NCBI GenBank assembly: GCA_016791475.1 | Contig: JAEUWI010000031.1 | Coordinates: 48,876-89,589, forward strand | Direction of reading: 5' to 3' | Origin: Candidatus Hydrogenedentota bacterium | GTDB taxonomy: Bacteria; Hydrogenedentota; Hydrogenedentia; Hydrogenedentales; JAEUWI01 | Length of the DNA: 40,714 nt | Shown here: one piece after another, positions 20,388 to 29,102 of the stretch | Layout of the letters: the number at the start of each line of letters is the position of its first letter | Numbering within the stretch: the stretch's first letter is position 1 | Program-made: the position numbers and the translations under genes | Notes under the pieces: model-generated | Seen by the model: only the letters and a program-made list of their open reading frames with translations | Databases searched by the model: none | What the model was told of the DNA's origin: nothing

Positions 20388-22286
20388 ATGAGTTTAGTAC
20401 GCCTTGAAAACATAACCAAGACCTATGCCGGCCGCGAAGTGCTGGACAGTATCGACTTCCGCGTAGAGGAGGGCGAGCACGTGGGCCTGATCGGCCGGAA
20501 TGGCACCGGCAAGTCCACCATATTTCGTCTCATTACCGGGGACATCGAGCCGGACAAGGGTATCGTGGACCGGATGAAGCGCATGCGCGTGTCCTGCCTG
20601 TCCCAGCTCCACAAAGTGGACGAAAGCATGACCATTTACGACATCGTGCTGGAATCCTTCGAAGAAATCCTGGCCCTGGAGGTGGAGTTGGGCGTGCTCG
20701 AAGAGCGCATGTCGACGGGCGACGAGGACGCTCTTCACGAATACAGTGAGAAGCAGGAAAGCTTTTCGATCCGGGGCGGCTATGATTTCCGGGTGCGAAT
20801 CAAGCAGGTCCTTCAGGGACTGGGCTTCGCCGAGACCGAGTTCTCCATGCCGTTCATGAATCTCAGCGGCGGACAGCGCACACGCTTGATGCTGGCCCTG
20901 GTGCTGCTGGAAGAGGGCGATTTACTCCTGCTGGACGAGCCGGAGAACCACCTGGACCTGGAGGCGCGTGAATGGCTTGAAAGCTATCTCAAGTCGTGTC
21001 CAAAATCCGTGGTGATCATTTCCCACGACCGTCAGATGCTCAATAACGTGGTCGACCGGGTGGTGGAGTTGGAGCGGGGCGAAATCAGGAGCTATCCCGG
21101 AAACTACGACGAGTACCTTGCGCGAAAATCGCTCCACCGGGAGCAGCAGCAGGCCGAATTCGAGCGCCAGCAGGAGTTCATTCGCAAGGAACAGGCCTGG
21201 ATTGATCGATTCCGCTACAAGAACACCAAAGCCAAGCAGGTGCAGAGCCGGATCAAGCGTCTGGAAAAGCTGGACGTGGTCGATGCGCCCCTCGCCGAGG
21301 CCAATTCGGTCAAGTTCAAGATGGGGGAGGTGGCCCGCTCGGGCGAGCTGGTGCTTGAGGCTAAAGATCTTTCCATGGGCTACGGCGGCCTGACGCTGTA
21401 CAAGAAGGTCAGCTTCACCTGTTGTCGCGGCGAACGTATCGGTATCGTTGGTCCCAACGGCACCGGCAAGACCACCCTGCTGCGCCAGCTTGCCGGCCAG
21501 CATCCGGGACTTTCCGGTGAAGTCACGCTGGGCCACAAGGTGATTCGAGGATTCTACGAACAGAATCACGAGTCGCTGAACCCTTCCTTCGACATTCTGA
21601 CGGAAGTCCACTCCGCCAAAGTGGAATGGACTCCGGAACAGATTCGCAGCTACATGGGCCGCTTTCTCTTTACCGGCGATGATGTGTTCAAGAGCATCGA
21701 CAGCCTCAGCGGCGGGGAGTTGAGCCGGGTCGCCATGGCGAAACTCTTGCTGGGCGGGGCCAACCTGCTGCTGCTGGACGAACCGACAAACCACCTGGAC
21801 ATTGTCTCCCGGGAGGCGCTTGAAAAATCGCTTGCGACCTATGAAGGGGCGATTATCGTCGTGAGTCACGACCGTACCCTGATCGACAAGCTGGTGGAGA
21901 AACTGATCGTCATCGAAAATGGTGTTGCCTCGGTGCACCTGGGCAACTACAGCGACTATCGCTACAAGAACCGGGATGTCCCGGAGAAGAAGGCCGAGGC
22001 AACGGAAGAGGTGCTCAAGATCCGCCGGGGCGAGAACCGGAAGGAGAAGAAGACCGACGACAAGGAGCGGCGTAAGATCAAGCAGAAGATGGAGAAGCTT
22101 GAGCAGGACATTGAATCCATCGAGGGGCTTGTGGCGGAGATTGAGCTGCGATTCACCAAAGTGGATCCGACCGACTATGGCGCCCAGCAGGCTCTGAAGG
22201 AAGAGTACGAGGCGCTCAAGGCGGATCTAGGGGAAATGTATCAGTCCTGGGAGTCCCTCGCGTCGGGTGAGTCGGAGGTAATGTGA
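20388..22286 (+). CDS. ABC-F family ATPase
   Basis: A 632-residue cytosolic protein with two ABC domains and no membrane segments. ABC-F proteins act on ribosomes, in translation factor or antibiotic-protection roles. Domain 1: Walker A GRNGTGKST, signature LSGGQRTRL and Walker B LLLLDEPENHLD, with Glu186 where Thr is usual. The linker with the P-site tRNA interaction motif is about 238-320. Domain 2: GPNGTGKTT, LSGGELSRV and LLLLDEPTNHLD (Asp464). A charged coiled-coil tail at about 540-632 resembles Uup-type C-termini. The ATG at 20388 has a weak AGG at 11 nt. It follows the glycosyltransferase run by 78 bp and ends before a hairpin at 22346. The sub-family is not assignable by eye. Confidence 0.94.
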   Translation: MSLVRLENITKTYAGREVLDSIDFRVEEGEHVGLIGRNGTGKSTIFRLITGDIEPDKGIVDRMKRMRVSCLSQLHKVDESMTIYDIVLESFEEILALEVELGVLEERMSTGDEDALHEYSEKQESFSIRGGYDFRVRIKQVLQGLGFAETEFSMPFMNLSGGQRTRLMLALVLLEEGDLLLLDEPENHLDLEAREWLESYLKSCPKSVVIISHDRQMLNNVVDRVVELERGEIRSYPGNYDEYLARKSLHREQQQAEFERQQEFIRKEQAWIDRFRYKNTKAKQVQSRIKRLEKLDVVDAPLAEANSVKFKMGEVARSGELVLEAKDLSMGYGGLTLYKKVSFTCCRGERIGIVGPNGTGKTTLLRQLAGQHPGLSGEVTLGHKVIRGFYEQNHESLNPSFDILTEVHSAKVEWTPEQIRSYMGRFLFTGDDVFKSIDSLSGGELSRVAMAKLLLGGANLLLLDEPTNHLDIVSREALEKSLATYEGAIIVVSHDRTLIDKLVEKLIVIENGVASVHLGNYSDYRYKNRDVPEKKAEATEEVLKIRRGENRKEKKTDDKERRKIKQKMEKLEQDIESIEGLVAEIELRFTKVDPTDYGAQQALKEEYEALKADLGEMYQSWESLASGESEVM

Positions 22287-22461: not shown

Positions 22462-22490
22462 TTGACAATAAAAGGTTTACATGCTATTAC
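22462..22490 (+). promoter_or_regulatory. Near-consensus sigma70 promoter of the small-protein pair
   Basis: A perfect TTGACA (22462-22467), a 17-bp spacer and TATTAC (22485-22490) with an extended-10 TGC just before it (22482-22484). An A-rich tract (GAAAAAATAA) directly upstream could be an UP element. This is the best promoter match in the window and the local AT content rises sharply. Transcription would start near 22498 and leave a leader of about 190 nt before the 43-aa gene. Confidence 0.7.
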
Positions 22491-22686
22491 AATGTCTGTA
22501 AAATAACGCAGGGCATGTCGGAATTCATGCTGTCGGAAGTTCAAAGCGCACAGGGCGTTGGCCGACGGCAGATTGACGTGACGGGCCAGCTACCATTTTG
22601 TGGAACGGGGATGATTCTGGGAGTGCTATCCTTTCGGGTTGCGCTCAAGTCGAATCCGAAAGTTGTAGAACAGGAGAACATCACGA

Positions 22687-22818
22687 ATGAAACACCACCG
22701 ATTGGTGAGCAAAACGCCGCAAATTTCCCAGACCAGCGGCAACTTTCAGGCCAAGGTTGACTTCAAAGTTAGTTTCTCGGCCCAGATTGTAGAATTCGTT
22801 TTTAACAAGACCTCCTAA
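22687..22818 (+). CDS. 43-aa small protein, first of a tandem related pair
   Basis: A 43-codon ORF beginning MKHHRLVSKTPQISQTSGNF and ending EFVFNKTS before TAA. AGGAG (22672-22676) sits 10 nt before the ATG. The segment LVSKTPxxxQTSxNF aligns with FVSKAPxxxQ-SxNF near the start of the next gene (22837), so the two look like diverged duplicates. Residues 20-40 alternate polar and hydrophobic (QAKVDFKVSFSAQIVEFVF), suggesting an amphipathic beta strand or hairpin. There is no Cys and no clear signal peptide. It has its own strong promoter and shares a terminator with its partner. No known family is recognised; a competing frame (to 22760) lacks any of these supports. Confidence 0.6.
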   Translation: MKHHRLVSKTPQISQTSGNFQAKVDFKVSFSAQIVEFVFNKTS

Positions 22819-22836
22819 CACCAGGGAATTTGCGCA

Positions 22837-23058
22837 ATGAAATTGAACGGACATCTTCGCTTTGTGAGCAAAGCCCCTACGGCGGCCCAGTCGAACTTCG
22901 CAATCAAGTTGCAGGGAACGCTGGACATCATCGACACGCTGCTGCTGGCCCAGCGCCAGGCACAGTGGAAGGCCTTTTTTCCCGAAGGTGGTGCAACGGG
23001 TGAATCCGGCGGTACGGATACGGGCACAGATACCGGTGGTACGGGCGGCGAACTTTAA
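22837..23058 (+). CDS. 73-aa small protein with Gly/Thr-rich tail, second of a tandem related pair
   Basis: A 73-residue protein beginning MKLNGHLRFVSKAPTAAQSN. Residues 1-23 resemble the 43-aa protein encoded 18 bp upstream (VSKxPxxxQxSxNF). Residues 24-48 are hydrophobic to amphipathic, ending RQAQWKAFF, and the C-terminal 25 residues are a Gly-Thr-Asp low-complexity tail ending in GGEL. AGGGA lies 9 nt before the ATG. A terminator hairpin follows 54 bp after the stop. No Cys, no catalytic motif and no recognised family. Possible roles are a structural or adhesive peptide, a secreted signal, or a regulator of a membrane partner; none can be chosen from sequence. Confidence 0.7.
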   Translation: MKLNGHLRFVSKAPTAAQSNFAIKLQGTLDIIDTLLLAQRQAQWKAFFPEGGATGESGGTDTGTDTGGTGGEL

Positions 23059-23104
23059 TGTTCCAGACCTGCAATTCGGCGGTGCCGGGTTGTTGATACT
23101 CCTA

Positions 23105-23150
23105 TAAAAAAGGCCCGCCTGAAACGTAGTGCGTTTCAGGCGGGCGTTCT
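23105..23150. terminator. Bidirectional intrinsic terminator
   Basis: A 14-bp perfect stem (23113-23126 with 23132-23145) has a 5-nt loop. Seven bases of A-run lie on its left (23106-23111 and neighbours), giving a T-run for minus-strand transcripts, and GTTCTATTGT lies on its right for plus-strand transcripts. It ends both the small-protein pair and the convergent Ser/Thr kinase gene, 40 bp from the latter's stop. Confidence 0.85.
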
Positions 23151-23185: not shown

Positions 23186-24028
23186 TCAGATGCGGCTGCG
23201 GCCCATTTCGGCAATCGCGATACGCAATTCATCGCAGTCGCCGAAGCGATCCGCGGGCTTCTTGGCCATGAGCTTCAGGATAACGTCGCCCAGGGCGTGG
23301 GGGCACTTGGGGTTGACCAGCGAGGGGTGATCGGGCTGGACACTCAGGTGGCATTGGTAGAGTCGTTGAAGATTGTCAACCTGGAAGGGGAGGCGCTCGG
23401 CGAAGAGTAGATACATCGTCACCCCGAGGGAGTACTGATCACTCTGGGGGGAAGCGCCCTCGCCCCGAATGATCTCGGGCGGCACATACATCGGCGTGAT
23501 CTGCTCGCCCGCCCCTTTGTCGATGAGGTCGAGGAGTAGGCTGTTTCCGTAGAGGGAGAAGTCGGCCAGCTTCACCATGCCCGTGCGGGTGAACAGGATG
23601 TTGGCGGGCTTGATGTCGTGGTGTATGATTTTCTGCTCGTGAAGGTACTGCAGGCCGGAGCAAATCTGGGAGATGATCCCGATGCGCTCCTTGACGTTCC
23701 ACGGGCGATTGATGAGGTACCACTTCAGATCGGGGCCGTCCACGTACTCCATAATCATGCACTTGCCGTCTTCGCCGTCCAGGAAGTCATAAATCTTGAC
23801 CACGTTGGCGTGGCTGTACTTCTTGAAGCGCTTGACGCTCTTGACGATATCCCGCAGGTGGAGCATGTTCCGGAAGAAGTTTTCACGGAACAGCTTGATC
23901 GCGACGACTTCGCCCTTCTTGGTGTCGATGCCACGATATACCCGACCGGTGCCACCCTGGCCGAGAATTCGATCGAGCTTGTAGTGGTAGAGCTTCGGCC
24001 TGTCCGGAGTAAATTGATCTTCGGCCAT
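23186..24028 (-). CDS. Atypical Ser/Thr protein kinase
   Basis: A 280-residue stand-alone Hanks-type kinase, cytosolic, with no transmembrane segment or extra domain. The Gly loop GQGGTGRVY and the VAIKLF lysine are intact. The catalytic loop reads HHDIKPAN (136-143) instead of HRD, the metal loop DFS (156-158) instead of DFG, and the APE motif is PPE. Asp138, Lys140, Asn143 and Asp156 are all present, so catalysis is possible, but loss of the HRD Arg suggests no activation-loop phosphorylation control. AGGGA lies 6 nt before the ATG. It is the last gene of the gatCAB-rsfS cluster, 27 bp after rsfS, with a terminator at 23105-23150. Confidence 0.9.
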   Translation of the reverse strand: MAEDQFTPDRPKLYHYKLDRILGQGGTGRVYRGIDTKKGEVVAIKLFRENFFRNMLHLRDIVKSVKRFKKYSHANVVKIYDFLDGEDGKCMIMEYVDGPDLKWYLINRPWNVKERIGIISQICSGLQYLHEQKIIHHDIKPANILFTRTGMVKLADFSLYGNSLLLDLIDKGAGEQITPMYVPPEIIRGEGASPQSDQYSLGVTMYLLFAERLPFQVDNLQRLYQCHLSVQPDHPSLVNPKCPHALGDVILKLMAKKPADRFGDCDELRIAIAEMGRSRI

Positions 24029-27963: not shown

Positions 27964-28058
27964 CATTCCGCTCAACGAAATGCTAAACTTTCTCAGAGCG
28001 ACCCGCAACCACGTTGAAAACGTTTTCTGATCGCGCGACAAGGCAGCGGAGGGCCAAC

Positions 28059-29102
28059 ATGAGCGAATTAACGTCCACTGACTACCCCGGCTTTCTCATG
28101 GAAGTCAAAAATCGTATCCGACGTGCCCGATACCAGGCGCTGCGGGCAGTCAACAAGGAGCTTCTTGAACTCTATTGGGACATTGGGGAGTCCATCTATC
28201 AGCGTCAAGAGTCGCTTGGATGGGGTAAGGCTGTGGTCGAGAACCTGGCACGCGACCTCCAGGCGGAGTTTCCGGGCCGAAATGGGTTTTCAGCGCAGAA
28301 TCTTTGGTTTATGCGCCAGTTTTACGTTGAATACATCGGAGACTCAAAACTCCAACCATTGGTTAGAGATTTAAGTTGGACCAAAAATGTCGTCATCATG
28401 ACCCGATGCAAGGATGCCCTGGAACGTGAATTCTACCTACGCGCCACCGCCCGATTCGGTTGGACAAAGGCCGTCCTCCAGCACCAGATTGACAATAAGA
28501 GTTACGAAAAATACCTGCTTAATCAAACCAATTTTGATGATGCCCTGCCGGAGGATATGAGGGCACAGGCCTCCCTGGCCGTGAAGGATCACTACACCTT
28601 CGATTTTCTGGATCTGGCCGATGAACACTCCGAGCGCGAGCTCGAACGCGCTCTGGTCAACAATCTGCGCCGGTTCCTATCGGAGATGGGCGGCACCTTC
28701 ACTTTCGTGGGTAATCAGCACCGAATCGAAGTGGGAGGAAAGGAATACTTCATCGATCTGCTCCTCTTTCACCGGCGGTTGCGGTGTCTCGTTGCACTTG
28801 AACTCAAAATTGGCAGCTTCGAGCCCGAGCACAAGGGGAAAATGGAATTTTATCTTGAGGCCCTGGATGCTCAGGAGCGTTTGGAGGGCGAGAACGCTCC
28901 GATCGGCATTATTATCTGCCGCGACAAGAACAAGACTGTTGTGGAGTACGCGCTGCGATCCGCAGGCAGACCCATCGGCGTTGCGACTTACACGGTGGTT
29001 CCCGAACTCCCTGAGGCTTTTCGTGCGGAGCTACCCAGCCCCGAAGCGATTGCCGAGCGCTTGCGCCTGTGGGCTGAAGGGCATGGGGCAGACAATGAGT
29101 AG
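28059..29102 (+). CDS. DUF1016/YhcG-type PD-(D/E)XK nuclease
   Basis: A 347-residue protein of the YhcG type. The N-terminal DUF1016 helical domain, about 8-160 (VNKELLELYWDIGESIYQRQESLGWGKAVVENLARDLQ, FSAQNLWFMRQFY), is followed by a PD-(D/E)XK nuclease core with Asp233 (FIDLLLFH) and Glu248-x-Lys250 (LELKIG), all intact. The start is the ATG at 28059, with GGAGG 6 nt upstream; the frame opens 15 codons earlier without support. YhcG-type genes are spread by horizontal transfer and occur near defence and mobile regions, but no methylase, toxin partner or integrase is adjacent here. Target DNA and role are unknown. Codon use looks more AT-tolerant than the neighbours, consistent with transfer. 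Confidence 0.9.
   Translation: MSELTSTDYPGFLMEVKNRIRRARYQALRAVNKELLELYWDIGESIYQRQESLGWGKAVVENLARDLQAEFPGRNGFSAQNLWFMRQFYVEYIGDSKLQPLVRDLSWTKNVVIMTRCKDALEREFYLRATARFGWTKAVLQHQIDNKSYEKYLLNQTNFDDALPEDMRAQASLAVKDHYTFDFLDLADEHSERELERALVNNLRRFLSEMGGTFTFVGNQHRIEVGGKEYFIDLLLFHRRLRCLVALELKIGSFEPEHKGKMEFYLEALDAQERLEGENAPIGIIICRDKNKTVVEYALRSAGRPIGVATYTVVPELPEAFRAELPSPEAIAERLRLWAEGHGADNE

Follow-up and report, generated by a model that had tools for sequence, protein, structure and literature searches.

The window analysed here, a stretch of 40,714 nucleotides (G000:C31:48876-89589) within a 7.7-Mb genome of Candidatus Hydrogenedentota, contains two small genes in tandem on the plus strand. They lie between an ABC-F ATPase gene upstream (20388..22286, plus strand) and a convergent protein kinase gene downstream (23186..24028, minus strand), both of which were named in an earlier note made from the sequence alone and confirmed with Pfam. 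The small gene (22687..22818, with its ATG at 22687 and stop codon at 22816-22818) follows a Shine-Dalgarno sequence, AGGAG at 22672..22676, that is kept in the genus, and it encodes a 43 AA protein with a leader, MKHHRLVSKTPQISQ, and a predicted helix at residues 16-42. The large gene (22837..23058, with its ATG at 22837 and stop codon at 23056-23058) follows a Shine-Dalgarno-like AGGGA at 22823..22827 and encodes a 73 AA protein with a leader, a predicted helix at residues 20-42, an invariant W44, a conserved K45, and a disordered tail rich in Gly, Thr, and Asp. The two reading frames, their Shine-Dalgarno sequences, and the 18-bp gap described in the earlier note can be read directly, and the gap measures 11-30 nt at most homologous loci. 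AlphaFold models of both proteins had a flexible N-terminus and one helix, which in the small protein reached a pLDDT above 90 at its middle and in the large protein was confident and followed by a disordered tail.

The promoter proposed for the pair is present at 22462..22490 (plus strand), with a -35 TTGACA at 22462-22467, a 17-bp spacer, and a -10 TATTAC at 22485-22490, and the sequence reads as having a TG extension at 22482-22483 and an A-rich tract upstream. Although a promoter scan favoured an overlapping TTTACA-17-TAAAAT in this region, we adopted TTGACA-17-TATTAC because it was the one supported as conserved by sequence comparison within the genus. Promoters of this type (TTGACA-17-TAT, TG-extended, with an A-rich tract upstream) were found at 35 of 52 homologous loci compared with 3.4% of dinucleotide shuffles, and were kept across families and despite different neighbours. 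We infer high, constitutive expression of the window pair. An inverted repeat, TTTACA-15-TGTAAA, spans the -10 element (22476..22502) and is kept in the four members of the genus, with the leader 3' of it diverging; it is a possible operator. The untranslated leader of about 190 nt (22491..22686, plus strand) is not conserved, had no Rfam match, and gave a fold z of -1.09, and on these grounds a structured RNA was rejected. A hairpin at 23113..23145 forms a bidirectional terminator common to the pair and the convergent kinase gene; the earlier note had called it strong, and the hairpin is indeed there, but its T-run is weak on the plus side and good only on the minus side, which serves the kinase.

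Homologues of the 73 AA protein occur with open frames in most of 60 relatives, and homologues of the 43 AA protein lie directly upstream of them, so the claim that these are genes stands; the condition that the earlier note set for its refutation, a lack of homologues or frameshifts in them, was checked and did not apply. Profile searches of 68 genomes of the phylum found the large protein in 55 (at E up to 1e-3, a few being matched by the N-terminal half only) and the small protein in 61 (at a lax E of 0.05), with the pair in tandem in about 55. None of 318 genomes of other phyla held a homologue of the pair at a threshold of 1e-4, and a pattern scan of 84,980 species returned 19 confirmed loci, all labelled Hydrogenedentota, Hydrogenedentes, Hydrogenedens, or 'uncultured bacterium'. 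The pair is under purifying selection, with pN/pS values across homologues mostly of 0.05-0.3 and one of 0.6. Neither protein has a family in Pfam, NCBIfam, PHROGs, PADLOC, or PDB, in agreement with the earlier note, whose author knew no family with their motif. A phage or plasmid origin was rejected, as IMG/VR and the phage and plasmid collections gave no match to the pair. In some genomes (L065, L036, and L074) a third tandem family member lies beside it.

The alignment of the small and large protein profiles had a probability of 98.5% and an E of 2e-15 over the first 37 columns, which supports the relatedness and origin by duplication that had been suggested for them. In the large protein H6 and W44 are invariant and K45 is present in 32 of 35 sequences; in the small protein M-K-H, P11, and F26 are nearly invariant, and the lysine after the helix is often R or M. 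The window pair proved to be two members of a multi-copy family, of which a joint profile found 12 matches in the same genome and matches in 64 of the 68 phylum genomes, the small-protein profile also detecting further copies in the same genomes. The family is restricted to Candidatus Hydrogenedentota. Its other loci are arrays of 3-6 tandem small genes and some singletons, and the members have in common a basic leader at the N-terminus, M-K-H-x-[RK]-x-[VI]-[ST]-[RK]-x-P-x2-A-Q, after which one helix is predicted; starts at arrays and singletons mostly read M-[KR]-H-x-[RK]-x-[VI]-[ST]-[RK]-x-P-x2-A-[QA]. A profile built from arrays only matched the window families at E 1.7e-14 (small) and 1.1e-10 (large), and by sequence the pair and the arrays are one family. 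Among 153 anchored members the information content peaked in the leader (H at 94%, P-x2-A, and [ST]-[RK]) and fell sharply after it, the conserved leader and more variable core that are general to RiPP precursors. In the array alignment a lysine follows the helix in all 37 members. A good sigma-70 promoter was found upstream of only some arrays, so that constant possession of one sets the pair apart. One conserved singleton of the family (L131:5871-6035, minus strand, and also at L144, L149, and L157) adjoins genes for a parvulin-type peptidyl-prolyl isomerase and a GspF-like secretion protein in several genomes.

In many genomes, this one included, the genes immediately after the arrays encode two GNATs, a CPBP membrane protease, an ABC ATPase, a permease, and a SPASM-GNAT fusion protein. 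In the genome of the window, an array of six small genes (contig C81, about 18508-17346, minus strand) is followed on the same strand by GNAT, GNAT, CPBP/Rce1-like protease, ABC ATPase, ABC-2 permease, and fusion protein genes, the two GNATs and the permease being assigned by similarity to the L136 cluster. The earlier note had seen no modification enzymes beside the pair, which holds within the window but not for the family elsewhere: the pair is never adjacent to the maturation genes, and the predicted leader-binding enzyme accompanies the arrays instead. Glutamate synthase genes (GltB and GltD) lie upstream of arrays at L134, L135, L143, L151, and L163, and also at L083, which suggests an inherited cluster position.

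The fusion protein of C81 is about 615 AA long and has an RRE-like, leader-binding domain at its N-terminus, followed by a degenerate radical-SAM/SPASM domain and, at the C-terminus, a GNAT domain. A profile of ten such proteins aligned with CteB (PDB; 5WGG) over residues 6-442, leader-binding domain included, at E 3.2e-38, and its C-terminus aligned with RimL-type acetyltransferases in profile comparison. NCBIfam maturase models matched all ten proteins and the SPASM domain (TIGR04085) scored above its cut-off, so that the fusion protein has both the leader-binding N-terminal domain and the SPASM domain of a CteB-like maturase. The N-terminal domain of CteB is a precursor recognition element (PMC8172795). 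The radical-SAM motif CxxxCxxC was absent from all 25 homologous frames, while the SPASM cysteines were kept in all members and all 25 frames, among them overlapping extracts of one locus, had a CxCxxC in the recognition domain. This invariant C-x-C-x2-C (L171:11245-13089, minus strand, and homologues) is a possible metal site. The fusion protein was found in 62 of the 68 phylum genomes and outside the phylum gave two matches only, both to the SPASM region. The fusion protein was also missing from the four genomes in which no family member was found (Fisher p 1.8e-5), but because all four belong to one family this represents one or two events rather than four independent losses. Conversely, a family member but not the fusion protein was found in G009 and in G006, the latter being 60% complete.

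We consider it slightly more probable than an even chance that the pair are orphan precursors, modified and exported in trans by this RiPP-like machinery of fusion protein, GNATs, CPBP protease, and ABC-2 transporter. The leader would recruit each precursor by being bound by the N-terminal domain of the fusion protein, the GNAT domains would acylate it, with the lysine after the helix as a possible site, the CPBP protease would remove the leader, and the ABC-2 transporter would export a product that may be bioactive. The window pair, with its own and probably constitutive promoter, would be served in trans by the cluster machinery and may act as a two-peptide product. With more reserve, we suggest that the family may form a phylum-defining RiPP class in which the pair is a conserved, constitutive two-peptide product with a housekeeping role, for example in the envelope or in signalling, rather than a variable antibiotic. 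Against processing in trans are the position of the pair apart from the maturation genes, the small number of events behind the co-absence, the two genomes with a family member and no fusion protein, the absence of the radical-SAM motif from the fusion protein, the frequent R or M at the lysine position of the small protein, and the lack of significant amphipathicity in the helices; the core of the pair is also conserved, unlike that of most antimicrobial RiPPs. Two-peptide (class IIb) bacteriocins have a double-glycine leader and GxxxG motifs, and the pair does not fit this class, having neither GG at the leader end nor GxxxG in its helices. An amphipathic membrane-active helix was rejected, since the hydrophobic moments did not exceed those of shuffles.

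As the chief alternative, the pair would share the ancestry of the arrays but would now be a stand-alone, unprocessed intracellular pair, such as a regulatory or structural helical heterodimer. Its constant separation from the maturation genes, its own strong and conserved promoter, its conservation over the full length of the proteins, and its tight pairing and spacing all fit this explanation; however, the leader is under no looser constraint here than at the arrays, although a protein that is not processed would have no need of it, and the genomes without family members are also without the machinery. We judge this rival unlikely, although serious. It is a good deal less probable that the leader is an export signal for the ABC-2 and CPBP proteins, with unmodified products and with the GNATs and fusion protein serving immunity or regulation. 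The constancy of the exporter and protease in the cluster and the missing CxxxCxxC of the fusion protein would agree with this, but a maturase homologue whose members all keep the SPASM cysteines and the leader-binding domain points to peptide handling beyond export.

Very improbable is a function of the pair with the adjacent ABC-F protein or kinase, which are upstream at about 19 loci and downstream at about 18, respectively. The shared order also takes in RsfS and GatB/A/C and looks inherited, and many loci keep the pair with neither neighbour, so the association was rejected as inherited gene order only and the ABC-F gene was placed outside the system. The earlier description of a self-contained operon holds in that the pair is an independent unit persisting where its neighbours change, but it is self-contained only within the window. 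Upstream of the pair, PEPCK genes were seen in one group of loci (L042, L049, L053, L054, L065, L066, L076, and L077) and in another (L036, L037, L038, L046, and L069); because these are by reading of two types, GTP-type and ATP-type, and many loci have no PEPCK, we treated the link as a gene-order residue. Clusters 11 and 13 of the gene-order comparison were taken as antisense ORFs of adjacent genes. Elsewhere in the window (28014-29102, plus strand) lies a PD-(D/E)xK nuclease-like protein matching the PADLOC candidate defence family PDC-S02 at E 2e-143. Finally, that the two frames are not genes at all, as their shortness and lack of a database family might suggest, is scarcely credible given frames open in nearly all homologues, purifying selection, and a conserved start, gap, and promoter.

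Several known systems resemble this one in part. In prochlorosin-type systems a single maturation machine serves numerous precursors that have a leader in common and are dispersed over the genome, as we propose here, but the leader and enzyme are unrelated and the window pair is conserved phylum-wide rather than fast-evolving. In the sporulation killing factor (skf) system, SkfC is a CPBP-type protease. The skf cluster contains a small precursor, a leader-binding-domain maturase, a putative protease, and export genes (PMC8172795), and in Hydrogenedentota a precursor, a leader-binding maturase homologue, a protease, and export genes are likewise clustered; SkfB, however, is a true radical-SAM enzyme, whereas the Hydrogenedentota fusion protein has no radical-SAM motif, and its system differs further in having as many as six precursors in an array, GNAT domains numbering three, and orphan precursors at dispersed loci. 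The selidamides are RiPPs to which GNATs add a fatty acyl group at lysine or ornithine (PMC9505594), and GNAT genes beside leader-bearing precursors and a conserved lysine are present here too, where acylation would be analogous, but selidamides have an NHLP leader, which is of a different family, and no SPASM fusion. The fusion protein aligns with the maturase of the SCIFF/ranthipeptide system (CteA precursor, CteB maturase) from the leader-binding domain through SPASM, yet compared with CteB it lacks CxxxCxxC and has the CxCxxC in its leader-binding domain and a C-terminal GNAT. The Hydrogenedentota precursors are mostly without Cys, in contrast to the SCIFF peptides, which have six cysteines in their C-terminal part, and the two window proteins contain none.

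We found no paper on such a system in Candidatus Hydrogenedentota, and no name for the small proteins or the fusion enzyme in the libraries searched or the literature found. The leader family, the architecture of the fusion enzyme, and the phylum-wide orphan pair are new, and the general kind, a RiPP-like cluster, is known, membership among the RiPPs being putative. A small orphan operon could be assigned here through a leader common to distant loci. Peptide modification would take an unusual route if it relied on a maturase homologue in which the radical-SAM motif is lost, the leader-binding and SPASM parts are retained, and an acetyltransferase is gained, and a largely uncultured phylum gains a nearly universal, undescribed peptide system.
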